DNA from: Peribacillus frigoritolerans
Lineage (GTDB): Bacteria; Bacillota; Bacilli; Bacillales; DSM-1321
Reading direction: 5' to 3'
Length of the DNA: 64,000 nucleotides
Assembly: GCA_030562215.1 (NCBI GenBank)
Contig: JAUPFL010000001.1
Location: 248,001-312,000 of the forward strand
How positions within the stretch are numbered: position 1 is the first letter of the stretch; each line of letters starts with the position of its first letter. Below the pieces are notes generated by a model, which was not told the origin of the DNA, made no database searches, and worked only from the letters and a program-made list of their open reading frames with translations. Position numbers and translations under genes: made by a program. Shown piece after piece: positions 7,192-28,655 of the stretch.

Positions 7192-7892
7192 TTAAAAAAC
7201 ATCATCAAGCGTTTCCACGCCAAATTGAGTTTTTAAAGCTGCAGGGGTTCCTGCCGCAATGACTTCACCTTCCCGAAGCATCGCCAATTTATCGCATCGT
7301 TCCGCTTCATCCATGACATGCGTCGTGATGATGATCGTTTTATGATCTTCATTTCTTAAACGCTCAAGTTCCTGCCAAATCGATTGTTTCAGCAAAGGGT
7401 CTATCCCTACTGTCGGTTCATCCAAAATGAGAATCTCCGGATTTTGGATGAGTGCAACCGCCAGTGACAGACGGCGTTTCATTCCCCCTGAATAATGGGC
7501 AACCCGAACGTTCAAATCACTCGTCAACTGTACGATTTCAGCTGCATATTGAATGCGTTCCCTTCGTTCCTTTTTCGAAAAACGATAAAGCTTCGCAAAA
7601 ATTCAAGGTTTTCGGCCCCCGTCAGTTCTGTATATAAAGCATCGGACTGTGCCATATAGCCGACATCCAGCAACAGTGCTTCATTTGGCACTTCTTGATC
7701 CAGAACCGTAACTTTACCCGCATCGGGCTTAATCAATCCGACAATCATTTTAATCAAGGTCGTCTTTCCGCATCCGGATGGGCCTAACAAGCCAAAAATC
7801 CCGCTTTTTTCAATATTCAGGCTCAATGGCTGAATGACCTTCTTCTGCTGAAAACCCTTAGCAATCCCTTCAATGGAAATTGCATTTTCCAT
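7192..7892 (-). CDS. ABC exporter ATP-binding protein (frame broken once)
   Basis: 233 residues once repaired. Walker A is GPSGCGKTT, signature is HYSGGMKRRLSLAVAL, Walker B is ILILDEPTVGIDP and the H-loop is TTHVMDEAERCD. ATG 7892 follows GGGAGGA at 11 bases. The frame breaks near 7600, where one T is missing from a run; six Ts give ENLEFFAKLYRFSKKERRER. The C-terminus is short (LKTQFGVETLDDVF), typical of compact ABC-2 ATPases. Operon with the permease, divergent from a TetR gene. Confidence 0.85.
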
Positions 7893-7924
7893 TGCACACA
7901 CATCCTCCCTCTTTAATTAACACG

Positions 7925-7977
7925 GTGTTGAGTGTATCATCATTCTAAGGTAGCATTCGGTCTAATACAATCAACAC
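7925..7977. promoter_or_regulatory. candidate operator pair for the second TetR
   Basis: GTGTTGAGTGTAT (7925-7937) and ATACAATCAACAC (7965-7977) are inverted copies with one mismatch, lying in the divergent promoter region between the ABC ATPase and tetR. Confidence 0.5.
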
Positions 7978-8010
7978 ATTTGGAAAAATGTTCAGTGAAG
8001 GAGACATTCC

Positions 8011-8609
8011 ATGGCATCGATTCATGAGGATATGGTACAAAAGACGAAAATGCAGATACAGCATCATTTTATTGCACTTGTTGAAGCAGAGGGGTTCTCA
8101 CATGTATCAGTGAAGAAAATTGCAGAGCGTGCCAACATTAATCGGGGCACATTCTATTTGCATTACACAGATAAATATGAATTGATGGATCACTTACAGC
8201 AGGAATTGTTAAATGAACTTCGAACCCGCATTACTGCCATTTTGCCGAAAGAGGCTTTTTTGGCTCTTCATCAACAGCAACTTTACCCGCCTTTCATAGC
8301 GATTTTTCAATTCATCAGTGAACATGCTCACGCATTAAGGGCCATTCTTGGTGATCAGGGCGATCCTTCTTTTGCCAAAAAATAAAGCGGGTATTCGGTG
8401 AAGTACTATTGGAGCGTTTAATCAGCCTGCATCCAGCAGCAAAAAATGAAGCATTCCGCATGTATATGCAAGCCTTCCTGACATCGGCTATTTTAGGAGT
8501 GATTACTGAGTGGCTGGAGAACTGTGAAGAACAAACGGCGGAGGAAATGGCGAAAATCCATTTTCAAATCTTGAACTTCATCAGCCAATTGCGCAACTTC
8601 ATCCAATGA
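8011..8609 (+). CDS. TetR family regulator with TetR_C_7-like domain (frame broken once)
   Basis: 199 residues once repaired. The DNA-binding part reads VSVKKIAERANINRGTFYLH (residues 33-52) followed by YTDKYELMDHL. The C-terminal part (MYMQAFLTSAILGVITEWL) matches Bacillus regulators such as YcnC/KstR-like proteins that sit beside ABC exporters. The frame breaks at about 8384 in a run of six A; seven A gives FAKKIKRVFGEVLLERL. Probably represses the divergent ABC exporter. Confidence 0.82.
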
Positions 8610-8617
8610 ACGATTCA

Positions 8618-8648
8618 TTAAAGGCATGTTCCATCAACATGCCTTTAA
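8618..8648. terminator. bidirectional terminator between tetR and MFS gene
   Basis: TTAAAGGCATGT and ACATGCCTTTAA form a perfect 12-bp stem with a 7-base loop. It separates convergent genes. Confidence 0.85.
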
Positions 8649-8654
8649 ATCGGA

Positions 8655-9914
8655 TTACATCTTTTCCTTCGCTTCTACCTCTACATCATCAAGGGAATAA
8701 TACCTCCTCTTGGAGGCCTTCATACTAAGTATCGACAATAAAATTGATAAAGCGAACATGATCAAGGAACCTGAAATCACCACGAACCGAATCGAAATGA
8801 AATGGGCTGAAACACCAACAATTGCGGTAGTAATGATGATCAATAAAGCTTCTAACAAGCCAAAAACACTTCCGACCCTGCCCATGATCTCCACCGGAAT
8901 ATTATTTTGATAAAAGGTTTGAAAGCCGGTGTTGGCAAAAGCCAATGAAAAGGCAATGATGAAAAATCCGATGGCGGCCAATGAAAAGGAATTCGAAAAG
9001 GCATAGATCATATAACCTATCGAGACAAATAAAGATCCAAGACCAATCATGTGCGAGATTTTCACTTTACTGATGAAGACGGCATTGACGATGGCGCCAG
9101 CAATGATGCCTGCCCCTGCGATGCTTACAAGGAATCCGTAATCGCTGTCCGACAAAAGGAGCACTGCCTTGGCAAACGCCGCTTCTTGGGAGTCGATGGC
9201 CGTTTCCATCACCACCATGCAGCTGAATAAGAAATAAATGAGCATGATATAGGAAGATTTCCGGCTGAAGTCCAGGACGATGCCCCAATCCTTTTTCATG
9301 ATGGTCCAAGACAGGTAACGACTGGATTGTTCAAGGGGATGATCCTTTTCAAGATCAGGCATGAATAAAGTGATGATACCGGATAATAATAAGGCAGCCG
9401 CGTTAATATAAATCGCTAAAACGGGCGTACCGATCAAGAAAAGGATACCCGCTAGCGCCGGTCCAATCAAAAAAGCCCCAGAATCCATTAAGCTTCGTAA
9501 GGAGTTAAATCGTTTCCTCTGTTCAACGGGAATTAATTTTGTAATATACGACCTTGATGTTGTTCCGAACATGGCCCCTGCCATATTGATCACGAACACA
9601 AGGGAATAGATGACCCAAATAGAAGAAGTCAATGGCAGCAAGGCTATGAATACCGTGCGAAATATGTCAAGTGCCGCCATTAGATTCCGCTTATTTATCC
9701 GGTCGATCACGCTCCCTGCCCACACATTCGTAAATATGGCCGCAATCGGTTTAACGATATAAAGCCCAGCTACCGCCAAGGCTGAATCAGTCATATCCAG
9801 AACGATTAAATTAAGTGCAATGAAATAAACCCAAGAACCGAAGTTGGAGATACCTATTCCGCACAATAGAATGGAGGGGTATTTCCAGGATACTAATGTA
9901 TTTCTTAATGTCAT
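8655..9914 (-). CDS. MFS transporter under T-box-like control
   Basis: 419 residues from ATG 9914 (GGGGAG six bases before). A longer frame runs through the leader RNA and is not real. Twelve hydrophobic segments; the first carries GIGISNFGSWVYFIALN and the loop between helices 2 and 3 carries VIDRINKRNLMAALDIFR, as in MFS_3/MFS_1 permeases of the MefA/macrolide-efflux-like group. The short tail is acidic and basic. A leader with a T-box antiterminator precedes it, which points to amino-acid-responsive expression and hence to an amino acid or peptide substrate, not simple drug efflux. Confidence 0.75.
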   Translation of the reverse strand: MTLRNTLVSWKYPSILLCGIGISNFGSWVYFIALNLIVLDMTDSALAVAGLYIVKPIAAIFTNVWAGSVIDRINKRNLMAALDIFRTVFIALLPLTSSIWVIYSLVFVINMAGAMFGTTSRSYITKLIPVEQRKRFNSLRSLMDSGAFLIGPALAGILFLIGTPVLAIYINAAALLLSGIITLFMPDLEKDHPLEQSSRYLSWTIMKKDWGIVLDFSRKSSYIMLIYFLFSCMVVMETAIDSQEAAFAKAVLLLSDSDYGFLVSIAGAGIIAGAIVNAVFISKVKISHMIGLGSLFVSIGYMIYAFSNSFSLAAIGFFIIAFSLAFANTGFQTFYQNNIPVEIMGRVGSVFGLLEALLIIITTAIVGVSAHFISIRFVVISGSLIMFALSILLSILSMKASKRRYYSLDDVEVEAKEKM

Positions 9915-9939
9915 CGCTTCTCCCCTTTGACCGTACATA

Positions 9940-10103
9940 AAAAACCCCGTCCCCAAGCCAATGCCTCTCGGGACGAGATCGATTTGCGGTGCCACTCCCA
10001 TGCGTCACTATACATCCCCAACTTCCTCGGCTGCTTTCAGGGCTCTTTCGGAAAGTGGTCATTCCATTTACTTTCCTCTTCCTTACGTCCACATTACCAT
10101 TAC
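9940..10103 (-). ncRNA. compact T-box riboswitch-like leader
   Basis: Reading the minus strand, GGGAGTGGCACCGC matches 10 of 13 fixed positions of the T-box consensus AGGGUGGNACCGCG. It is followed by CTCGTCCCGAG and a terminator arm GGGACGGGGTTTTTT, i.e. mutually exclusive antiterminator and terminator. Upstream, GGAAGAGGAAAGTA and CGAAAGAGCC resemble Stem I elements. A promoter TTTACA-18-TAAAAT lies at about 10,109-10,138. The Stem I region is only about 100 nt, shorter than usual. UGGC in the bulge predicts a tRNA with discriminator G (Trp, Asn, Asp or Ser types); this is inference. Confidence 0.6.
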
Positions 10104-10143
10104 TAAATTTTAACATCTATGGTTCGAAACTGTAAATAACGCA

Positions 10144-10171
10144 AAAAAACTCATTCAAAATAAATGAGTTT
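10144..10171 (-). terminator. weak terminator-like hairpin after the 63-residue gene
   Basis: AAACTCATT and AATGAGTTT pair around CAAAATA, with an A-run on the left that is a U-tract on the minus strand. Confidence 0.5.
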
Positions 10172-10258
10172 AAAAGCAAAACAAGATATGGATTTTTCGC
10201 TCGGCGTTCCTGGATAGATCATAATTGAATACCGCTAATGAATGTTGAATCAATTGAA

Positions 10259-10450
10259 TTACCTTAGGGAAAACAATTTTAAAAACGGATTCTTTTTCTT
10301 ATCCGTTATCCTTAACTCATCCATGATGATTTGATCCTCATGATCGGCTATCCATTTCCTTAGTGCATCTTTATCCTGGCATTGTGTTAAATATGTCTGG
10401 CCACCCTTGCCTGTAGCATTAATAACATATCTATTGAACGTCTTCTCCAT
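10259..10450 (-). CDS. small hypothetical protein (63 aa)
   Basis: Intact 63-residue reading frame starting MEKTFNRYVINATGKGG and ending in a basic, aromatic tail (KKKNPFLKLFSLR). No signal peptide, no membrane span and no cysteine motif (a single cysteine). The middle is rich in charged residues (CQDKDALRKWIADHEDQ). GGCGGGC lies about 8 bases before the ATG on the minus strand. I do not recognise the family. It stands alone between the T-box gene and the ktr riboswitch. Confidence 0.55.
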   Translation of the reverse strand: MEKTFNRYVINATGKGGQTYLTQCQDKDALRKWIADHEDQIIMDELRITDKKKNPFLKLFSLR

Positions 10451-10736
10451 AATTGCCCGCCTTTTTAATAAAATGTATTGAAGCTTTAAATACGAATGTA
10501 CTGCTTTTTTCTTTATCTTTTACAAAAGAAACATAATATATATGTTAGAAATTTTGATTGGCAATAGCATGTTCTGCTTGAAAGTATTGAATGAAGTTCA
10601 TCGATGCCGGTTATCATAATCGGATTAATCGAACCTATCATAATGCGCTAACTAATATTTGTCAATACGTTTTCTAAATGTAAATTAAACGTAAATTTTC
10701 AGTTTTATTAAAGAAATATTTTTTACGATTTAGGGG

Positions 10737-10766
10737 TTTACAACTGCTAAATGATGGGAGTAGAAT
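10737..10766 (+). promoter_or_regulatory. promoter of the ktr operon
   Basis: TTTACA at 10737-10742 and TAGAAT at 10761-10766 with an 18-base spacer, about 30 bp before the riboswitch. Confidence 0.6.
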
Positions 10767-10796
10767 ACGTTTATCAATTTAATATATTTCGGCCTA

Positions 10797-10965
10797 AACT
10801 CAAAGGAATTGAGTACGGAGGACCCAATCATTTGGGGTTAATTCTGCCTTGCAGAAGGGATGAGATCAGCTCTTTCGCCATCCTACCCGTCAGCTAACTT
10901 CGTCGGCTAAAGCGAAGGAGGTCATAAGACCGCCTATTTCGGGAGCTTTTTTGCGCGTTTTTTCA
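10797..10965 (+). ncRNA. c-di-AMP riboswitch (ydaO/yuaA class)
   Basis: Conserved ydaO/yuaA blocks are present: GGAGGACCCAATC, GGGGTTAATTCTGC, AGAAGGGATGAGATCAGCTC, CCATCCTACCCGTCAGCTAA and CTTCGTCGGCTAAAGCGAAG. A terminator-like hairpin (CGAAGGAGGTC / GACCGCCTATTTCG, then a T-run near 10,950) ends it. In Bacillus this RNA switches off potassium-uptake and wall genes when c-di-AMP is high, which fits the ktrB-ktrA genes that follow at 11,088. Confidence 0.9.
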
Positions 10966-11087
10966 GGAGCAAATAGCTATTCGATGTTTTCGCAGGTCTT
11001 TTTATTATGCCTTTAAAAAGAGTCGGAATGGGGATTGATGGTTAAGATATTCAAACAGTTTTACACATTTCATTTTTATAAGTAGGG

Positions 11088-12434
11088 ATGATCAATTTGA
11101 TAAAAGCAAAAAATTTGTTAGATCCGCCCAAAATACTTGTACTCGGGTTTGCCATCCTGATACTTATCGGGTCCTATTTATTGACCCTGCCGATTTCCAC
11201 TGAAAATGGCGATGGCCTTTCTTTTCTGGATGCTTTATTCACCGCAACCTCAGCTACTTGTGTAACAGGACTGGTCGTAGTGGATACGGGATCGACCTTC
11301 ACCACTTTTGGTGAGTTGGTCATCTTAACACTGATTCAGATAGGCGGTTTAGGGTTCATGTCATTTGCGACGTTTTTCTTTTTCCTTCTAGGCAAAAAGA
11401 TTTCTTTAAAAGGCAGGTTACTCTTGCAGGAGTCCTTAAATAACCTATCCATGGCAGGTATAGTCAGGTTAGTGAAACGGCTTTTAATTTTCACGGCCAT
11501 CATTGAAGGCATGGGGGCCCTTATCTTATCGATTCGCTTTTCTTTTGATATGCCAATGGGAAAAGCGATCTATTACGGGGTTTTTCATTCCATCTCGAAT
11601 TTCAATAATGCCGGCTTTGATTTAATGGGGGAATTCAGGAGTTTGACCCCATATGTATCGGATCCATTCGTAACGCTTACCGTCGCCTTTCTCATCACGT
11701 TTGGCGGAATAGGCTTCATCGTGATGAATGAACTATACGAATATCGTGACACCCATCGTTTATCCGTACATACGAAGGTGGTTCTGATGACTAGCTTGAC
11801 CCTTACGGTTACCGGCGCAATTTTAATCTTTTTATTCGAGTTCGGTAATCCAAAGACATTGCAGCCTTTATCTTTCATGGGTAAAATACTGTCATCTTTA
11901 TTTCAATCGGTATCACCAAGGACAGCCGGCTCCAATACGCTGAATATCCCTGATTTGACTCAGCCTACATTACTGCTCATCATTTTCTTGATGTTCGTCG
12001 GGGCTTCACCCGGATCGACTGGCGGCGGGATTAAAACGACTACATTGGCGACGCTTGTCGGAACGGTTTGGTCACAGATTAAAGGAAAGGGTGATGTGGT
12101 CTTATTCCGTCACCGCATTGTGACTGAAACGATTTTTAAAGCATTATCGGTAACATTCATTGGCGTATTCATGGTTTCGCTCATCTCCATTCTGCTGACC
12201 ATCACTGAAAGCGGAACTGACTTCTTGATGATTTTGTTCGAAGCCACTTCAGCATTCGCCACCGTGGGACTTTCAATGGGTTTGACCCCAGAATTATCAC
12301 CGGTTGGCAGGATGCTCATCATTTTCACGATGTTTGCAGGCCGTGTTGGTCCTTTGACTTTGGCCTTCGCTATCGCCATGAGGCGCAAACCAGATCCGTT
12401 CCGACGTCCAAAAGGAAAAATCATGATTGGTTAA
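11088..12434 (+). CDS. ktrB: potassium channel-forming subunit KtrB/KtrD
   Basis: 448 residues of the Trk/Ktr/HKT superfamily: the membrane pore of a K+ (Na+-coupled) uptake system. Four pore loops with their selectivity glycine are seen: SATCVTGLVVVD, SNFNNAGFDL, SPRTAGSNTL and SAFATVGLSMG. The flexible gate loop GASPGSTGGGIKTTT in the third repeat is intact. TTG at 11,097 is an alternative start because AGGG lies nearer to it in standard spacing. Preceded by a c-di-AMP riboswitch and followed 23 bp later by the regulatory subunit, so the operon order is B then A. Confidence 0.9.
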   Translation: MINLIKAKNLLDPPKILVLGFAILILIGSYLLTLPISTENGDGLSFLDALFTATSATCVTGLVVVDTGSTFTTFGELVILTLIQIGGLGFMSFATFFFFLLGKKISLKGRLLLQESLNNLSMAGIVRLVKRLLIFTAIIEGMGALILSIRFSFDMPMGKAIYYGVFHSISNFNNAGFDLMGEFRSLTPYVSDPFVTLTVAFLITFGGIGFIVMNELYEYRDTHRLSVHTKVVLMTSLTLTVTGAILIFLFEFGNPKTLQPLSFMGKILSSLFQSVSPRTAGSNTLNIPDLTQPTLLLIIFLMFVGASPGSTGGGIKTTTLATLVGTVWSQIKGKGDVVLFRHRIVTETIFKALSVTFIGVFMVSLISILLTITESGTDFLMILFEATSAFATVGLSMGLTPELSPVGRMLIIFTMFAGRVGPLTLAFAIAMRRKPDPFRRPKGKIMIG

Positions 12435-15549: not shown

Positions 15550-16448
15550 TTAGACTTTCACTTCAAACTCTTTAACGTAGACCGCATTCCCGGTGATTTC
15601 AATATCATATGTGTCATCGTTTTTGGTAGCCGTAACGTGAACTCTGCCATCCTTTCCGATTTCATGTCCTTGTTCGATTAACAGTTGCACCTCATCTTCA
15701 AGATCATCCTTTATGTATTTTGCATAATAAGCGCCCATTACACCTGAAGCCGTTCCTGTAACCGGGTCTTCAAGCGTACCCGAAAATGGCGAGGAAAAAT
15801 GCCGGGCATGCATATGGGCATCCTGATCGTACGTTTCCAGGCAAAGGGATGAACGGAAGCTCTTGGCATTTCCTTTAATATTTGTGGAAACAGGTTATTG
15901 TTCGCCTTCATCTTTTTGAATGCATTGCGGTCTTTTATCGGAATCAGTAAAGTCCATAAACCTGTACTTCCATAAATAATAGGCAATTCCGCTTCTAGAT
16001 CTTCTATTTCAAGTCCGAGGGAACTGGCTAAGCCAACTTTATCTCCGTTAAACGCTTCAAACTGCGGCGCGGCCTGCTTCATCGTAATATATATATCAAG
16101 ATCCGCCGTCGTATGGATCTTGATTGGCAATATTCCCGCTCCTGTTTCAATCATCAGCTCATCTTTATTCAACAATCCCCTGGTCTTCAGTGAATGGATG
16201 GTGGCCATTGTCGCGTGTCCGCAAAGATTCATTTCGTGCCCCGGTGTAAAATAACGGATTCTAAGATCGGCAATATCGGACTCCATGGGAAAAGCGGTTT
16301 CATTGAACCCGACCTTCATCGCTATAACCTGCATTTCCTTTTCCGTCAGTCCATCCGCATCTAAAACCACACCTGCCGGATTTCCTTTATTCGGTTTACT
16401 GCTGAACGCATCGTAATGAAAAACCCTTACCGTTTTCAAATCTAACAT
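15550..16448 (-). CDS. PhzF family isomerase/epimerase (frame broken once)
   Basis: 299 residues once repaired, the usual PhzF size. The N-terminal half has [20 protein letters not shown] and GFNETAFPM with the conserved catalytic Glu, and [18 protein letters not shown]. The C-terminal half repeats the fold with [17 protein letters not shown]. The frame breaks near 15,836: one T missing in CCCTTTGCC; with it the text reads [19 protein letters not shown]. PhzF-like proteins of Bacillus (YddE type) have no fixed substrate; phenazine synthesis should not be inferred. Monocistronic. Confidence 0.83.
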
Positions 16449-16700: not shown

Positions 16701-17672
16701 TTAATTCATTTGAGATTTATGCCATTTCCACGCACTTTCAATGATTTCTTCCAAATCTATTGATGCTTTCCAACCAAGTTCTTCATATATCTTATTGGCC
16801 GAAGCTACCAGGCGGGCTGGATCTCCAGGGCGACGGTCTGCATACTCTACGGTCGGTTTAACTCCTGTGACTTTTTCGCAAGTGTCGATTACATCCTTAA
16901 CCGAAAACCCTTTTCCATTCCCAAGATTGTAGATGGCCGTATCCTTCTTCCCGGATAATAGGGCTTGAAGCGCGATTATATGAGCTTGGGCTAAATCCGT
17001 TACATGGATATAATCGCGAATGCAAGTGCCATCTTCTGTATCATAGTCCGTTCCAAACACGGAAATCTTCTCACGTTGACCTAATAAATGCTGTAAAATG
17101 ATAGGAATCAGGTGGGTTTCCGGATCATGGCTTTCACCGATTTCTGCTGACGCATGTGCTCCGGCCGCATTAAAGTAACGCAAGACGACATAATGGAGTC
17201 CATATGCATTTGCAAAGTCCCCTAAGATTTGCTCTACCATCAATTTTGAGCGGCCATATGGGTTAATCGGATTAGTTGGCTGATCTTCATCAATCATATC
17301 CACATTTGGTATCCCGTACGTAGCTGCCGTTGATGAAAAAATGAAATTCTTAACATCATGCTTGAGCATGGTATTCAATAATGTAAGAGTGGCACCTACA
17401 TTATTATCATAATATTTATAAGGATCTTGAACAGACTCCCCGACCAAGCTATTGGCGGCAAAGTGCATAACAGCTTTAATGGGATATTTAAGGAATATTT
17501 CATTCAAGACCGCTTCATCCCCTAAATTCCCTTCCACCAAGATGGCCTTCGAATCGACCAGCGAACGAAATCCAGTTGAGAGATTATCCAGAATGACAAC
17601 CTCTTCAGTTTTCACTAACTCTTTTACAAGATGACTTCCAATATATCCTGCACCGCCAACGACCAAAATCAT
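16701..17672 (-). CDS. galE: UDP-glucose 4-epimerase
   Basis: 323 residues, short-chain dehydrogenase of the extended type. NAD motif is GGAGYIGSH (residues 6-14); catalytic residues are Ser/Thr in STAATYG and Tyr-Lys in YGRSKLMVE. LRYFNAAGAH is the family hallmark. It interconverts UDP-glucose and UDP-galactose (or the N-acetyl forms). It follows the large glycosyltransferase and gtaB on the same strand, so it supplies UDP-galactose for the surface polymer made by this locus. Confidence 0.93.
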   Translation of the reverse strand: MILVVGGAGYIGSHLVKELVKTEEVVILDNLSTGFRSLVDSKAILVEGNLGDEAVLNEIFLKYPIKAVMHFAANSLVGESVQDPYKYYDNNVGATLTLLNTMLKHDVKNFIFSSTAATYGIPNVDMIDEDQPTNPINPYGRSKLMVEQILGDFANAYGLHYVVLRYFNAAGAHASAEIGESHDPETHLIPIILQHLLGQREKISVFGTDYDTEDGTCIRDYIHVTDLAQAHIIALQALLSGKKDTAIYNLGNGKGFSVKDVIDTCEKVTGVKPTVEYADRRPGDPARLVASANKIYEELGWKASIDLEEIIESAWKWHKSQMN

Positions 17673-17766: not shown

Positions 17767-20700
17767 TTATAAGCATTTATTGAAGGTTTCCATGGCCAAT
17801 CCATTATATTGGGTGTAATCAAACTTCGCTAGTTTAGGATTATCATTATTAACCATGGTAGATAAGCCCTTTTCCAGTCCATCTATGCTATTTTCGACAA
17901 GTAAACCATATTTACCGTTTTCCAAAACGGTTCGGTTAGCCACAATATCCGTAGCCATGATTTTCATTCCTAACGTCATGGCCTCCAATAAAACCATAGG
18001 CTGCCCTTCATAATGTGAGGAAAGAACGAAGCAGTCACATTTTTCCATGAACGAAAATGGATTTTCAAGCTGGCCCAAAAGATGAATGGAATGATTTAAG
18101 TCCAGCTCATCAATGATTGCCTGCAAATCTTCCTTTAAGGGTCCTTGTCCTAAAATATACAGTTTACTATTTTTGTGTTTCTCATGAAAGCCTGCGAATG
18201 CACGAATCAAATTATCTTGCCCTTTTTCAGGAGATAACCTTCCCATATTGACAAAGTTAAAATCATTTTTATCAGGATATGGAACGAACTGATCATTCAC
18301 TTCCAATCCATGGACCTCTTGTACGATTAACGCCTGTTTATCGATCCAGCCTATAGATATCCCATCCAATAATATATGGGCATAAGTACCAAGTTGAGTA
18401 ACCGCTTCTTTATCGAATTCCACAATCCGGCCATTAAAGGTTGGCCCATTTTCCAAGACCATGGCATCTTGCAGTCCATAAGGCTTATCCCAAATATGAT
18501 AATCGCCCAAGTTAATTTCGGCAGTGCCGCGCACTTCCCGTTCTTTTAACAGGATTGGCTCTTCTATGATTTCGAATGCCCCCGTATTTAACCAGCCAAT
18601 TTTCTTATTATCGATTTCGAAAAGGTAATAGCCGCCTTTGTTGGTTCTGTTATACTTTATGATTCTGACAATTTGCCCTTCAAAATCGATTGCCTTGCTC
18701 ACTCTTTTAGCCTTGTAGTTCGGATATGCCTTCGTCCAGATTGTATGATCTTCCGGGTTAGCTATTTTTCCGTACTTCTGATTGCCGGTGTTTATTTCCT
18801 TCAGCGTTCTATTCTCGATCTTATCAATGAACTTTTTATTGTTTTTATAGTTTCTCGATATTATATACTTTCTTTTCATCATGATTTGCAGCTTGTCATT
18901 AAAGCTCATGTCTTCATTGATTGTACAATGTTCAAGGATGGATAAAGCAGCATTATCTATCCAGCCTATTATCTTGTCTTTTACAGATATTCTGCTATAA
19001 ATCGAATGCTGGGTTTTTGCTTCCCTATCAACTTTTACAATGATCCCTTTAAAATCATGACTGCCGGAAACTTTGTACGTTCCTTCAACTTTATACGGCA
19101 GGGACCAAATATAGTTCGATCGAGGTCTTACTAACCTTGCAATTTTATCCACTTCTTTTTCATAAATGATGCTGTCTGGCAGCAGCTCCACAGCTTCTTC
19201 ACTAATCCAGCCTATTATTTGATTGTCATGGCTGAATTTGTAAAAAGTCTTTTGATTAGCATGGGCTTTTCTCGAAATCACGATTTCAGCACCTTCAAAT
19301 CGTTCTTCCAATGGAAATTGAGCGGCATTCGAAATTCCCGGAAGGGTATTCCAAACAGGGTTATCCTTTACATCCCATAATATCGCCCTTGCTTTGAAGT
19401 TTTCTGTGATCATTGCCTTTTCATCATTTTCGATAACTTCAGGTTCATTTGACTCGATTTGAAGGATTTTATCCGGGTTGATAGAATTCATTACAAAATC
19501 AAATTTATCGAAGTCTGCATACTCCAATAGATTCTTTCGGTTTAATTCCATCGTTCCCTCAGAAACGCTTACCAGTTTATCAAATCGATTGTATACCGAA
19601 AATATCCCTCTTAGATTAATACGGTGAGGTCTCTTTCCGTTAATGATGCGCTCACTATCAGAAAGCAAATCATTATGCATATAGCAAACTTTCTTTTTTG
19701 CAACTGCCGCCAGCAGATATTTCGCCCAATAATGGCTATAACCGCTAAAATCGATAACAAAATCAAACTTTGTTTTGCCGAATAAACGTGCATGCTCCCT
19801 AATATAGGCATTTTCCGGGTAAAGCTTCTTCCCTAAGAAACCTCTTTCCCCTCTGTTATGGATGAATTTATCTTTGTAGACTTCCAAAATTTTATACACA
19901 GGCAAGCCAGGTTTGAATAGAAAACGCACATTCTTATTAACCTTGCCCATATTTTTCAAAACCTCGTACGAGTGAGGAGTGGCAGTGAAACAGCTGACAT
20001 CATATTTATCATAATCAATATTATTCATTAAGTTAAGGAAAGAGGATGTAATCCCGTTATCCCTCAAACCACCTGGATAAATTAATATTTTTTCCTTTGC
20101 GGAATCCAGCCCGGTAATTGTGTTCAGTTGTTTCGTAGACTTATTGAAAATATTTTTGACTATTCTCTCCGTTACTTTTCCATCCTCATGGTTCGTGAAT
20201 TTTTCCTGCATTTTTTATATTTATCGGAATATCTCAATTTCACATTTTTAATGTCTTTAATGGCTAGCGCCAATTCTTTTGAGTTAAAAAGCATTGGTCC
20301 CGGAAGTTCATCATTTTGGAGATATTGTCCCCTTTGCTCTGCATAAACGTCCGTATCCCAAGTGTAAAATAGAATTGGCTTATCGGTAACAAGGTAATCA
20401 AAGAAAATGCTGGAATAATCCGTGATAAGCAAATCGACTGCAGCAAGCAATTCATTCGTATCCACATGGTCTGGTATTAGCCGATCCTTGATTTCCGAAT
20501 GCTTGGCCGCTTCTTTATATAGAAATGGATGCACCTTAATAAATAGATTATATCGTTCACCGATTTGACTTTGTAAATAATTAATATCTGCAATGATTTG
20601 AAGAAGATCGTTATCTACCTTGGCCAGGTTCGTCCCCTTCCAGGTCGGGGCATATAAAATATTTTCCTTAGCATCACTGATTTTCAAACCCAGGGTCCTT

Positions 20701-21408
20701 AGATAATCCTTATACTCCCCGGATCCGTATTCAGCGTCAAATCGATCCTCGGATATCCTTCTTCTATTATTTCACCTTTATACAATCCATTTAACTTATA
20801 GCTATGTGTAAATATGTTCGTAGTATGGGCATTAGGGCTCAAAATGAAATCTGCACTCAAAAAGTTCCTGACGACGTTTTGAGAGACCGAAGGGTTACCG
20901 GGTATATCAAAGCCCATATTCTTAAGGGGCGTTCCATGCCAGGTATTGATGTAAACTTGATCGCTTTTAGGGATGAAGAAAGACTGGAATGTGGAATTAT
21001 TGATTAAATACTCACTTGTTGCCAACCACTTTAAATATTCCTTTGAATTACGCTGAACAAATTGAACATTCGGCATATCCTTATACTTCGCTATTACACC
21101 TGAGAGGACACTGAAATCCTGGATGGACCAAATGTGCATAAAATCTTGATAGTCCTGATTTTCCAGCATATATTTAAACATCGCGTATGGACTGTCAGTC
21201 ATACTGTTACCATCACGGCTCTCATATAGAATCGTGTTTTTTGAATTTTTAATTTCTCATAATACTTTGCATATCTATTTACACGCTGATGATTTTCCTT
21301 TGATAGGAAATTAACAATAGGCTGTTTAAGGAAATCGACTTTTCTTTTTATTACCTTCTTATTCACTAAATAGGCATCCCCTTTTATGGATTTATATTCA
21401 CCATTCAA
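17767..21408 (-). CDS. TagF-like glycerophosphotransferase fused to GT4 glycosyltransferase with internal GW/SH3 modules (frame broken three times)
   Basis: A single protein of about 1,214 residues once three lost bases are restored (near 21,230, 20,712 and 20,212). Residues about 60-400 are a CDP-glycerol glycerophosphotransferase: INTWHGTPLKNMG, FILSPNAHTTNIF, APTWKG, KVHPFLY and LITDYSSIFFDYL. Residues about 440-640 are the N-terminal lobe of a GT4 transferase. Residues about 673-1,027 hold four GW/SH3-like modules, each ending IGW(I/L) plus a short tail. The GT4 catalytic lobe resumes at about 1,047 (NMGRLSPEKGQDNL, SSHYEGQPMVLLEAM). It probably builds and decorates a glycerol-phosphate polymer. 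The TTG start is uncertain; no strong ribosome site is seen. Confidence 0.8.
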
Positions 21409-21502: not shown

Positions 21503-22390
21503 TCATTTGTCCACTGCCTTGTGCAGTTCGAGGATATTTTCCATTACTTTTATAATGTCTTCTCTTAAATCGGGACGTTGCAGGGCAAATTCAATTGTCG
21601 TTTTCACAAAGCCATCGACAACTCCGACATCATAGCGTTTTCCTTCAAAATCGTAAGCGAAGACACTTTGGATTTCATTCAGTTTTTGGATGGCATCCGT
21701 TAACTGGATTTCTCCGCCAGCCCCTGTTTCCTGCTTGGCCAGGAAATCGAATATTTCCGGAGTCAGTATGTATCTTCCCATGATGGCTAAGTTGGATGGT
21801 GCCGTTCCTTGTTTTGGTTTTTCGACGAAACGGTTCACTTCGTATCTTCTGCCCTCTTGCGTAAGCGGGTCAATGATGCCATATCTATGTGTTTCGCTCT
21901 CATTCACCGGCTGCACACCAATGATGGACGAACCTGTCGCATCATATTCGTTGATTAATTGACGCAGGGATGGCACATCGCTTTCTACGATATCATCGCC
22001 TAAAAGGACGGCAAATGGCTCATCACCAATAAAGTTACGAGCACACCAAACAGCATGTCCGAGGCCTCTCGGTTCTTTTTGCCTAATGTAATGGATATTA
22101 GCCAAATTGGATGGGTATCGCACCTTCTCCAATAAATCGAATTTCCCTTTTTCACTCAAGTTATTCTCTAGTTCGTAAGCATTATCAAAATGATCTTCTA
22201 TCGCTCGTTTATTCTTTCCTGTGACAATGATTATATCTTCAATTCCCGCTTTCACGGCTTCTTCTATAATATATTGAATAGTAGGTTTATCGACAATTGG
22301 CAGCATTTCTTTAGGCATGGCCTTCGTTGCGGGCAAGAATCTAGTTCCCAATCCCGCTGCAGGTATAATGGCCTTTTTAACTTTTTTCAT
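21503..22390 (-). CDS. gtaB: UTP-glucose-1-phosphate uridylyltransferase
   Basis: 295 residues. The nucleotidyltransferase signature [20 protein letters not shown] is at residues 11-30, with the substrate motifs [35 protein letters not shown] and the metal Asp in LLGDDIV. It makes UDP-glucose for glycolipid and wall teichoic acid glucosylation. AAGGAG precedes ATG 22,390. First gene of a locus followed by the TagF-GT4 fusion and galE, which use the product. Confidence 0.95.
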
Positions 22391-22797: not shown

Positions 22798-23438
22798 TTA
22801 TTCAGCTTCGGCAACAACGGTAAAGCGTTGGTTGATGTGCTGCGGATTTTCAATTTCATCAAGTACTGCAAGGGCAAAATCGGCATAACTTACATAGCTT
22901 TCACCCTTTGAGTTTACAAGAAGATTGTCTTTACCCAATTTATATCGACCTGTTCTATTTCCTTGCGGATCAAAGAAGGCGGAAGGACTGATGAACGTCC
23001 ATTGGATGCCCGTGGCGTTTTGCAGATCTCCAAGGTTCTTGGATTGATTATACGCTGTTGCAAAGTATTCTTTAGGGAACTCAGGCGTATCCAGTACACG
23101 GATCGTTTTTGCCTCGTCAACGAAAAGGCTTCCAGCTCCGCCAACAACAATCAGTTTCGTTTGAGGAGCCCCTTTCATTGCCTCAATCAAGGTTTTTCCT
23201 GCATCGACATGCAGATGTTCTTTCCTGGAGCAGCGCCAAAGGCATTCACTACCACATCGAATTCTTTAATATCTTCCGCTTTCAGATCGAATACGTCTTT
23301 TTCCAGTACGGATGCTCCTTGAATTTGGACTTTAGCTTCATCCCTGACAATGGCCGTAACTTCATGTCCCCTAGTCAATGCTTCCTTTAAAATCAGACTT
23401 CCAGCTTTTCCGCTCGCACCAATAATACCGATTTTCAT
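22798..23438 (-). CDS. ywnB: YwnB-like NAD(P)-binding oxidoreductase (NmrA type, frame broken once)
   Basis: 213 residues once repaired. An atypical short-chain dehydrogenase: N-terminal GIIGASGKAGSLILKEAL (nucleotide binding) and VVNAFGAAPG; the middle has LIVVGGAGSLFVD and the end FISPSAFFDP. It matches B. subtilis YwnB in order of motifs. The frame breaks near 23,219, where one A is missing from GGAAAAG; repair gives GKEHLHVDAGKTLIEAMKG. AGGAGG precedes ATG 23,438. In B. subtilis ywnB lies beside the Rrf2 gene ywnA; here bdbCD lies between them. Confidence 0.8.
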
Positions 23439-25559: not shown

Positions 25560-28500
25560 TTATTTATACTTAGGAACCTCTATCGTCAATTTATAGGAAT
25601 CTAATAAACTATATAAATTATAAATCTGTTTCACTTGTTTTGTTGCCCAGCCAATATCAGTCGCATACTGGTGTGATGCATATCCATATTTCTCTGCAGC
25701 TGTAGGATTCCATCTCATTTTATAAAGCGTGTCCTGTCCAGAAGAGATATACCCTTTGGCGATGAATTCGGCACCGCCTATGATGGCCGCTTCCGGAGTG
25801 AACCAGCCTGCATTATAGGCGTATTGAGCGCCGCTGCTTAGCGCAGTTCCGTCAAATGCTCCGACTCCATACATATTATAGACCGTTTTCCCGTTCACCT
25901 TTACGCCAGTCGCTAATGGTGAGGTGCCATTCCCGGTCTCCAGCAAAGCGTGTGAAATCAGGTAGATTTCATTTACCCCATATTTTTCCCCTGCCGCAGT
26001 GAAGGTTGCAGCTTGGCCTTGTAGTATCCCTTTACCTGAAAGGATTCTATTATTCACTTCAGAAACGTTCATGTTGGTGACTTGGGAGAGCTTGACGAAT
26101 TGGAATGAATTTACTGGATCATTCACAAAATTATTCGGGTTAAGATTATATTCTATTTCTTCCGGACTGGCATTTACCCATGTCTTGTTATAGTCCACCT
26201 CATACCAATAGTATCCGTCAGAGCCCCTTACTTTTGATTTAATATTCAATGATTGGTTATTGCTGACAGGACCGACTACCCAATAATTAGAACCGGCTCC
26301 GCCCCTGACACGCCATCCGGTTCCTTTAACTGTACCTTTTGTTGAATTGATTAAAGATACTCCATCTTCACGTATGTAGGTCTTATACTTCTTATCCGTT
26401 TGACCATTAACGGCCATTTGAATTTCAACCATCTTTTCCATCGTAAGATTATACTCTTTATCGATCCTGATTATCGATCCATTCGAACTTCCCGGACCTT
26501 CCGGTGCTTTGGCCGTTAAATATTGCGTACTGACATATCCGGTTTTTCCATTGGCCGTGACTCTTGACCAGCCATTAGACTCTGAATACACCGTTACGGC
26601 CGTATTGTTTACAAGCTTGGTTATAATTGAAGCGGAAGCAGATGCTGCAGACCGCATATTCAGACTCGAGCCATCATTCACACTTACGTATTTAACTAAT
26701 GTGTTTTCTTCTCCATCTGGATTCAGCCCCGGTACAGAACCAGGCTTCGTTGCCGATAGATATTTCGTACTGACATAACCTTCTCCGCCATACGCTTTAA
26801 CTTTTGACCAGCCATTTGATTCCGAGATGACTTCAACCTCTACACCCCTTGCCAATTTCACAATGACGGAAGCACTATCTGACGGTTTATTCCGCATATT
26901 CAATGAACCCGAACTGACATTTACATATTTCGTTGTCGTTTTTCAGGTATGGATGGTTTGGAGTCCGTTCCAGGCTTTGTCGTGGAAAGATAGTCAGTGC
27001 TGACATACCCATCCTTCCCATTTGCCTTGATTTTCGCCCATCCATTGGATTCCGAATACACCGTCACTTCCGTTCCTTTTGACAGCTTTGCGACTATGCC
27101 CGCGCTATCCGACCCGCTTTTTCGCATATTGAGCGTTCCAGAGCTTACGTTTACATATTTCGTCGTCGTTTTTTCAGGCGTGACTGCCGTTGAACCCGTT
27201 CCCGGTTTTGTTGTCGATAGATATTTGGTGCTGACATGTCCGTCTTTTCCATTGGCTTTGACCTTGGCCCAGCCTTTGGATTCCGAATAGACCGTCACTT
27301 TCGTTCCTTTTGACAGCTTTGCGACTACGCTCGCGCTTTCCGATCCGCTTTTTCGCATATTGAGGGTTCCAGAGCTCACGTTTACATATTTTGTCGTCGT
27401 TTTTTCAGGCGTGGCCGTCGATCCCGATCCCGGCTTTGAAGCAGACAGATATTTGGTGTTGACATATCCGTCTTTTCCATTGGCTTTGACTTTCGCCCAA
27501 CCATTGGATTCCGAATACACCGTCACTTTCGTTCCTTTTGAAAGTATGGCGACTATGCTTGCGGTAGCTTTTCCACTTTTTCGCATATTGAGTGATCCCG
27601 TGTTCACGTTCACATATTTCGTCGTCGTTTTTGCAGGTGTGACTGCCGTTGATCCCGACCCTGGCTTTGAAGCAGACAGATATTTATTGCTGACATATCC
27701 ATCCTTTCCATTGGCTTTGATTTTCGACCAGCCATTGGATTCCGAATACACCGTCACTTTCGTCCCTTTTGAAAGGATGGCAACTATGCTTGCGGTAGCT
27801 TTTCCACTTTTTCGCATATTGAGTGAACCCGTGCTCACATTCACATATTTCGTTGTCGTTTTAACTGTCGCCTCAGCTTTGGTTACTGTTCCAGGCTTCG
27901 TTGCCGATAGATACTTCGTGCTGACATATCCATCCTTTCCATTGGCCTTGATTTTCGCCCAGCCTTTGGATTCCGAATACACCGTTACCTGTGTGCCTCT
28001 TGTCAGCTTTGCGACTATGCTTGCACTATCACTACCGCTTTTTCTCATATTAAGTGAACCTGTGCTCACATTCACATATTTTGTTGTCGTTTTAACGGCC
28101 GCCGAAGCTTTTTTACCGCTCCAGGCTTCATTGCCGATAGATACTTGGCACTGACATATCCTTCTTTTCCATTGGCCTTGATCTTTGCCCAGCCTTTGGA
28201 TTCCGAATACACCGTCACCTGTGTGCCCCTTGTCAGCTTCGCGACTAAGCTTGCACTATCACTACCGCTTTTTCTCATATTAAGTGAACCTGTGCTCACA
28301 TTTACATATTTCGTTGTCGTTTTAATGGTCACAGCAGTTTTCGTTAAAGTCCCTGGCTTCGTTGCCGATAAATACTTGGTACTGACATATCCTTCTTTTC
28401 CATTGGCTTTGATCTTTGCCCAGCCTTTGGATTCCGAATACACCGTCACCTGTGTGCCATTTGCCAGCTTTGCAACTATGCTTGCACCTTCCGTCCCGTT

Positions 28501-28655
28501 TTTTCTCATATTGAGCGATCCGGAATTCACCTGCACAAACATGACGTTTTCAATATTGGCCTGTTCCGCATGTAGTGGAGCTGCAGATATTTTTCTTCGA
28601 AAGCAACTGTAGACAACACTGCAAAACAGAAAGTTGGTATAATTAATTTCTTCAT
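25560..28655 (-). CDS. secreted N-acetylglucosaminidase with nine SH3b repeats (frame broken three times)
   Basis: 1,032 residues once repaired. ATG 28,655 (GGGAGA before it) starts a signal peptide (MKKLIIPTFCFAVLSTVAF). Nine bacterial SH3 repeats of about 65-80 residues follow, each with GSLNMR, GW(A/S)K and GYVSTKYLS, joined by KPG..TTTKYVNV linkers. The C-terminal 200 residues are a LytD/LytG-type glucosaminidase with the catalytic Glu in ISHALLETGNGTS and NMYGVGAFDG. Single A losses at about 28,600, 28,100 and 26,938 break it into four frames. It cleaves peptidoglycan glycan strands at the cell surface; SH3b repeats bind the wall. Confidence 0.88.
26900..28540 (-). repeat. tandem DNA repeats encoding SH3b modules
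   Basis: Seven to eight near-identical units of about 210-235 bp. Shared blocks on the plus strand include TTGGATTCCGAATACACCGT and TTTTTCGCATATTGAG. The similarity of neighbouring units suggests recent duplication or exchange. Confidence 0.8.

Follow-up and report, generated by a model that had tools for sequence, protein, structure and literature searches.

How should a gene be read that lies in four reading frames between gtaB- and galE-like genes, and that joins a teichoic acid polymerase domain to a glycosyltransferase? This question is raised by positions 17767 to 21408, minus strand, of a 64,000-nucleotide stretch of the Peribacillus frigoritolerans genome (assembly GCA_030562215.1, contig JAUPFL010000001.1, positions 248,001 to 312,000), in the following called the window. 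We consider it likely that the product is a cytoplasmic polymerase that unites two enzymes, as Cps3D does, and that it makes a type II teichoic acid and binds the nascent chain through four GW modules.

The domain content carries this assignment. A first-pass annotation of the letters had described a TagF-like polymerase followed by a GT4 glycosyltransferase that is split by four GW modules, and this was confirmed by Pfam, NCBIfam, and the fold prediction of a relative. The longest of the four pieces (814 residues) contains four PF13457 GW stretches in Pfam (E 3.2e-53, 178.8 bits vs. a cut-off of 21), values that rule out matches by chance, and four GW stretches of NF033202 in NCBIfam. The N-lobe of the GT4 domain gave a weak match to PF13439 (E 0.0017, below the Pfam cut-off). 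Despite this weak match, the N-lobe is present according to the predicted structure, since in a template-free prediction for the intact relative L070, residues 424-1200 match the GT-B enzymes BshA, PimA, and TarM across the insert. The same predicted model superposes on Cps3D over 766 residues at 3.0 A, with both halves in one superposition, and Cps3D matches both halves of L070 with an E value of 3.6e-129. PF04464 and PF00534 were found in all 46 rows of an alignment of intact relatives, which had been picked from fusions. Two histidines of the TagF half, assigned by motif and alignment position, and the R, K, and EX7E residues of the GT4 half are invariant in all 46 rows, and the active-site motifs are also found in the window pieces. 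The GT4 residues R, K, E, and E align with the Cps3D UDP-sugar-site residues cited in PMC11666461. In the relative L010, the first 55 residues carry a net charge of +8, and the best 19-residue hydropathy mean (1.44) lies within the GT4 C-lobe. Since L010 is without a strongly hydrophobic segment, the protein is presumably cytoplasmic.

In the window, four successive frames of 69, 167, 171, and 814 residues jointly tile the gene. We found 17 intact copies, each a single frame that stays open over about 1,200 codons, in 16 of 35 other Peribacillus genomes; the Sporolactobacillus copy (L026/L100) is likewise a single intact frame. The 17 single-frame copies rule out three genuine separate genes. 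Thus, the earlier claim that three frameshifts hide one protein stood, with a size of about 1,200 residues instead of the 1,214 given there, and the idea of a single enzyme, for which homologues had been proposed as the test, gained support from same-genus homologues that hold both domains in one protein. The breaks might nevertheless be real and the gene a decayed pseudogene in this strain: they are present in the assembled sequence, and the gene is patchy across the genus (17 of 36 genomes, its own included), with a short match only in genome G018. However, at all three breaks the window is one base short compared with five of five relatives, the 814-residue piece is up to 97% identical to its kin, and the source assembly (completeness 87.46%) also splits tagA, tagD, further genes with PF04464, and, within the window, at least two more genes, which is a pattern of sequencing errors. 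Given the one-base shortfalls and the further split genes, sequencing errors are the most likely cause of the breaks, and decay of the gene is very improbable. Translation probably starts at GTG 21366, giving a product of about 1,200 residues, because this codon is preceded by the Shine-Dalgarno-like stretch aaaagggga and the open frames of L015, L020, and L021 stop short of the TTG position.

Cps3D and Cps7D of Actinobacillus pleuropneumoniae (PDB 8QOY) also carry a TagF-like domain followed by a GT4 domain in one chain, and they transfer glycerol-3-phosphate and galactose alternately (PMC11666461, PMC5974469). Alternate transfer has been demonstrated as well for HS1.09, which polymerizes the HS:1 capsule of Campylobacter jejuni and, as a multidomain protein comparable to Cps3D, has a TagF-like and a retaining galactosyltransferase domain (PMC11924219). 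A GW insert is not mentioned in the available parts of the descriptions of HS1.09 and Cps7D. The window protein shares with Cps3D the fold and mutual domain arrangement, as predicted, and the cited UDP-sugar-site residues. Cps3D has, however, an N-terminal TPR domain and no insert between the GT4 lobes, whereas the window protein has four GW modules in the hinge. The TPR domain of Cps3D and Cps7D is required for processive elongation, and that of Cps3D also plays a role in dimerization (PMC11666461). Neither the window pieces nor L070 matched a TPR family in Pfam, and one of the 46 alignment rows contains TPR_1; as far as described, the domain occurs in the majority of capsule members, not in all, and is no strict family criterion. 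The first-pass annotation had known of no characterized enzyme with this layout. That does not apply to the union of TagF and GT4 in one polypeptide, which is already known from Cps3D, Cps7D, and HS1.09, and it does apply to the GW insert in the GT4 hinge, which alone appears to be new. Literature searches for a GW-containing polymerase or for Gram-positive type II polymerases gave no description of such a layout in the listed titles and first lines of abstracts of open-licence papers, which is weak evidence of absence.

Other known proteins share parts of this architecture. Bcs3 of Haemophilus influenzae type b likewise combines a TagF-like transferase with an SH3-type domain, but it uses ribitol-phosphate/ribose chemistry, includes a phosphatase, and carries a single SH3b domain that follows its last enzyme, whereas the four GW modules of the window protein lie inside GT4. 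The SH3b domain binds the polymer of Bcs3 in the crystal, and its disruption abolishes activity (PMC10299916). Membership in the Bcs3 type is ruled out by the absence of any phosphatase family from the Pfam matches and by the location of the SH3-like modules inside GT4. TagF of Staphylococcus epidermidis (3L7I) polymerizes type I wall teichoic acid and has no GT4 domain in the match; a plain type I TagF is ruled out, with GT4 fused in all 17 intact same-genus copies. In sequence and fold, the GW modules are like those of InlB (1M9S) and of the putative autolysin Lmo1076 (5JQC), although InlB is a surface protein and the window protein presumably cytoplasmic.

From the homology to the alternating enzymes Cps3D, Cps7D, and HS1.09, the most likely product is a poly(glycosylglycerol phosphate) with the sugar in the main chain. 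The TagF-like half would transfer glycerol-phosphate from CDP-glycerol to the terminal sugar, and the GT4 half would add a sugar, probably glucose or galactose in alpha linkage, from a UDP-sugar to the terminal glycerol-phosphate, the UDP-sugars being provided via GtaB and GalE. Alternation of the two steps would yield a teichoic acid of type II. Most likely, the GW modules in the GT4 hinge bind the nascent chain near both sites and thereby raise processivity, a role that the TPR domain has in Cps3D and Cps7D and that has been proposed for the SH3b domain of Bcs3. The flanking gtaB- and galE-like genes had been named before, and all 17 same-genus loci have gtaB, the fusion, and galE in this sequence; these loci come from related genomes and are not independent cases. 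A GtaB relative of at least 70% identity lies near 10 of the 26 loci with an insert.

The TagF-GT4 fusion itself is widespread in sequence data. We scanned the genome contigs of 84,980 species, using as the query the GT4 half without the TagF part; the proportions given here describe the best 80 of 498 relatives only, which represent 79 distinct loci. TagF and GT4 share one frame in 76 of the 79 (L116 and L145 are without TagF, and in L095 it is partial), and the fusions extend from Staphylococcus to Brevibacterium, that is, over Bacillota and Actinomycetota. The stretch between the GT4 lobes comprises 19-77 residues in 50 fusions, among them those of Staphylococcus, Cytobacillus, Bacillus haynesii, and Actinomycetota with the same catalytic halves in one frame, and 234-416 residues in the other 26. 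A local hidden Markov model (HMM) run on the 79 frames detected GW modules in 25 of the 26 frames with a long stretch and in none of the rest, and Pfam found GW in 25 of the 46 rows scanned (26 long, 20 short). By the local HMM, 14 loci, including Peribacillus L069-L071, have four modules, Mesobacillus L081 has three, and L082 and L083 have two each; for Sporolactobacillus L100 the count is two by this model and three by Pfam, and the lactic relatives gave weak GW scores. In a tree of the 76 rows from which the insert region had been removed, the insert label requires two changes, compared with a mean of 21.7 after shuffling, and none of 500 shuffles was as low. An approximately unbiased (AU) test on a reduced set of 39 rows, with 37 of the 76 left out, including L115 and all Actinomycetota rows, narrowly did not reject the grouping of the 26 insert rows together (p 0.086). 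The simplest reading of these sequences would be one gain of the insert in Bacillota, plus one loss or one misplaced row.

Individual loci showed further features. Genome G007 holds two copies of the fusion (L159, L164), which are separated by about 31 kb and are both flanked by relatives of gtaB and galE. The short match in G018 (L030) covers 65 residues of the fusion's C-terminal end at 75% identity and is possibly a remnant. Vagococcus acidifermentans has a second frame of the same family, 829 residues long and apparently insert-free (L090:12854-15343), downstream of the GW-bearing one. The Weissella fusion L127 (6385-10218) has about 480 residues ahead of the TagF domain that contain no Pfam family above the cut-off. 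L074, titled Bacillus subtilis DE0224, carries a fusion of the GW type that clusters with B. niameyensis, and the record is possibly assigned to the wrong species.

That the modules hold the polymer, as the first-pass annotation had suggested, is plausible in view of GW proteins and of the SH3b domain of Bcs3, and the GW cassette would be a natural candidate for the job that the TPR domain performs in chain elongation of Cps3D and Cps7D. The insert could, instead, be a structural or protein-docking module of the same alternating polymerase, making a dimer, membrane, or export-complex contact. It is placed at the GT-B hinge, it is neutral overall, relatives without it retain both catalytic halves, and a dimerization role is on record for the Cps3D TPR domain. 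GW/SH3-like modules bind polymer in related settings, however, and the variable module number is easier to reconcile with a repeatable unit of binding than with a single fixed contact, which makes a docking function rather doubtful. Several observations weigh against the proposal of a wall polymerase with a GW tether. The claim that GW modules bind lipoteichoic acid is contested: InlB is retained on Listeria via galactosylated wall teichoic acid (PMC7155027), whereas another study gives peptidoglycan as the GW-domain receptor (PMC4944223). The GW insert of L010 has no basic character overall (57 K/R, 58 D/E). The insert is missing from 50 of the 76 fusions, and in L099 (Leuconostoc, 7744-11376) a stretch of 416 residues between the GT4 lobes contains no GW match. 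The insert-free Weissella row L127, which has a long branch, is placed within the insert clade, and this raises the number of changes needed from one to two. To these points are added the patchy presence of the gene in Peribacillus, the distance of about 460-475 kb between the fusion and the tagA and tagD genes of the same genome, and the lack of any wall polymer structure for Peribacillus in the literature found.

The product could also differ from a type II teichoic acid. According to the first-pass annotation, polyglycerolphosphate is polymerized and then glycosylated; the TagF half would make the plain polymer, and the GT4 half would add side-chain sugars like TarM or TagE, with the GW modules holding the chain. 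TarM indeed matches the GT4 C-lobe (E 7.3e-12 to 6.3e-10), and proteins that teichoic acid retains are among the known carriers of GW modules. The match to Cps3D is far better and takes in both halves together, though, and Cps3D-type enzymes alternate. The decorating enzymes TarM and TagE are stand-alone GT4 transferases with a TarM-type extra domain. The TarM-type family PF09318 was absent from the Pfam matches of the window pieces at E 1 or better, and GT4 is here fused to TagF, so that the protein does not belong to this group. As the characterized relatives place the sugar in the chain, decoration is less likely than alternation and, in our judgment, quite unlikely. A capsule or a secreted polysaccharide, rather than a wall-linked teichoic acid, would be in keeping with the capsule makers among the characterized relatives and with L069-L071, where no TagA-, TagB-, TagG-, or TagH-like gene was found within about 20 kb around the gene. 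An accessory polymer or capsule is also made possible by the location of the Peribacillus gene far from the main teichoic genes. Against this stand seven loci of Vagococcus, Bavariicoccus, Enterococcus, and Neobacillus (L078, L079, L084, L085, L087, L088, L090) with TagA- and TagB-like genes near the fusion, five of which have TagG- and TagH-like genes too; L093 (Enterococcus) and L096 (Vagococcus) have no Tag-like neighbors. These tallies are loose, as the fusion is itself matched by the TarF query and identity is no higher than 23-32% for some of the TagH, TagB, and GtaB matches. In Vagococcus L090, LCP-, TagH-, TagB-, TagA-, and TarF-like genes precede the fusion, most of these names resting on scores below equivalog cut-offs, and this layout fits a TarF-type linker maker that would hand over to the fusion polymerase. 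We regard a capsule or secreted product as unlikely and a wall-linked type II teichoic acid as the probable one.

Table 1. Features of the split fusion gene and its direct neighbors in the window
Feature	Position	Strand	Remark
Whole split gene	17767..21408	-	a single frame in relatives, broken into four in the window; GTG 21366 as likely start
Piece 1, 69 residues: basic N-terminal stretch and start of TagF-like domain	21199..21408	-	no Pfam match alone
Piece 2, 167 residues: TagF-like domain, first half	20699..21202	-	PF04464 E 1.7e-32; TWHGTP 20927-20944
Piece 3, 171 residues: TagF-like domain, second half	20172..20687	-	PF04464 E 4.4e-42
Piece 3 motifs KVHPF; TDYSS	20523-20537; 20409-20423	-	
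Piece 4, 814 residues: GT4 N-lobe, four GW modules, GT4 C-lobe	17767..20211	-	
GT4 N-lobe, acceptor side	19456..20103	-	YPGG...NGIT near start; limits transferred from L010 by residue counting
GW module 1	19165..19404	-	local HMM score 104.7; PF13457 stretch
GW module 2	18919..19155	-	local HMM score 112.1; best PF13457 stretch
GW module 3	18550..18786	-	local HMM score 113.3
GW module 4	18307..18543	-	local HMM score 106.7
GT4 C-lobe, donor side	17797..18273	-	PF00534 E 1.1e-31
C-lobe motifs GRLSPEK; EGQPMVLLE (EX7E)	18223-18243; 17983-18009	-	
gtaB-like UTP-glucose-1-phosphate uridylyltransferase, directly upstream	21503..22390	-	name from first-pass annotation
galE-like UDP-glucose 4-epimerase, directly downstream	16701..17672	-	name from first-pass annotation

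Elsewhere in the window, two overlapping frames at 15550-16448 correspond to one frame of the relative L069 and represent another split gene. Two frames, 22798-23190 and 23187-23438, probably belong to a split gene as well, since their counterpart in L070 is a single frame of 214 codons (the second part was matched by eye). Three frames at 25560-28542 with SH3-like repeats match the same frame in L069 and L070 and resemble a split gene of the wall-hydrolase type.

The synthesis of type II wall teichoic acid was described as poorly known in 2018 (PMC5974469), and the pathways of types II-IV were still termed uncharacterized in 2024 (PMC11666461). There is a slim chance that the fusions are the missing main-chain polymerases for type II wall teichoic acids of Gram-positive bacteria, and that one clade has acquired GW modules, which elsewhere fix proteins to finished wall polymer, as an intracellular tether whose two, three, or four modules set the chain length. 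The two-enzyme architecture, found across Bacillota and Actinomycetota and at some loci beside teichoic genes, offers concrete candidate genes for type II synthesis. With zero, two, three, or four modules at the same place, these proteins would constitute a natural experiment on processivity.
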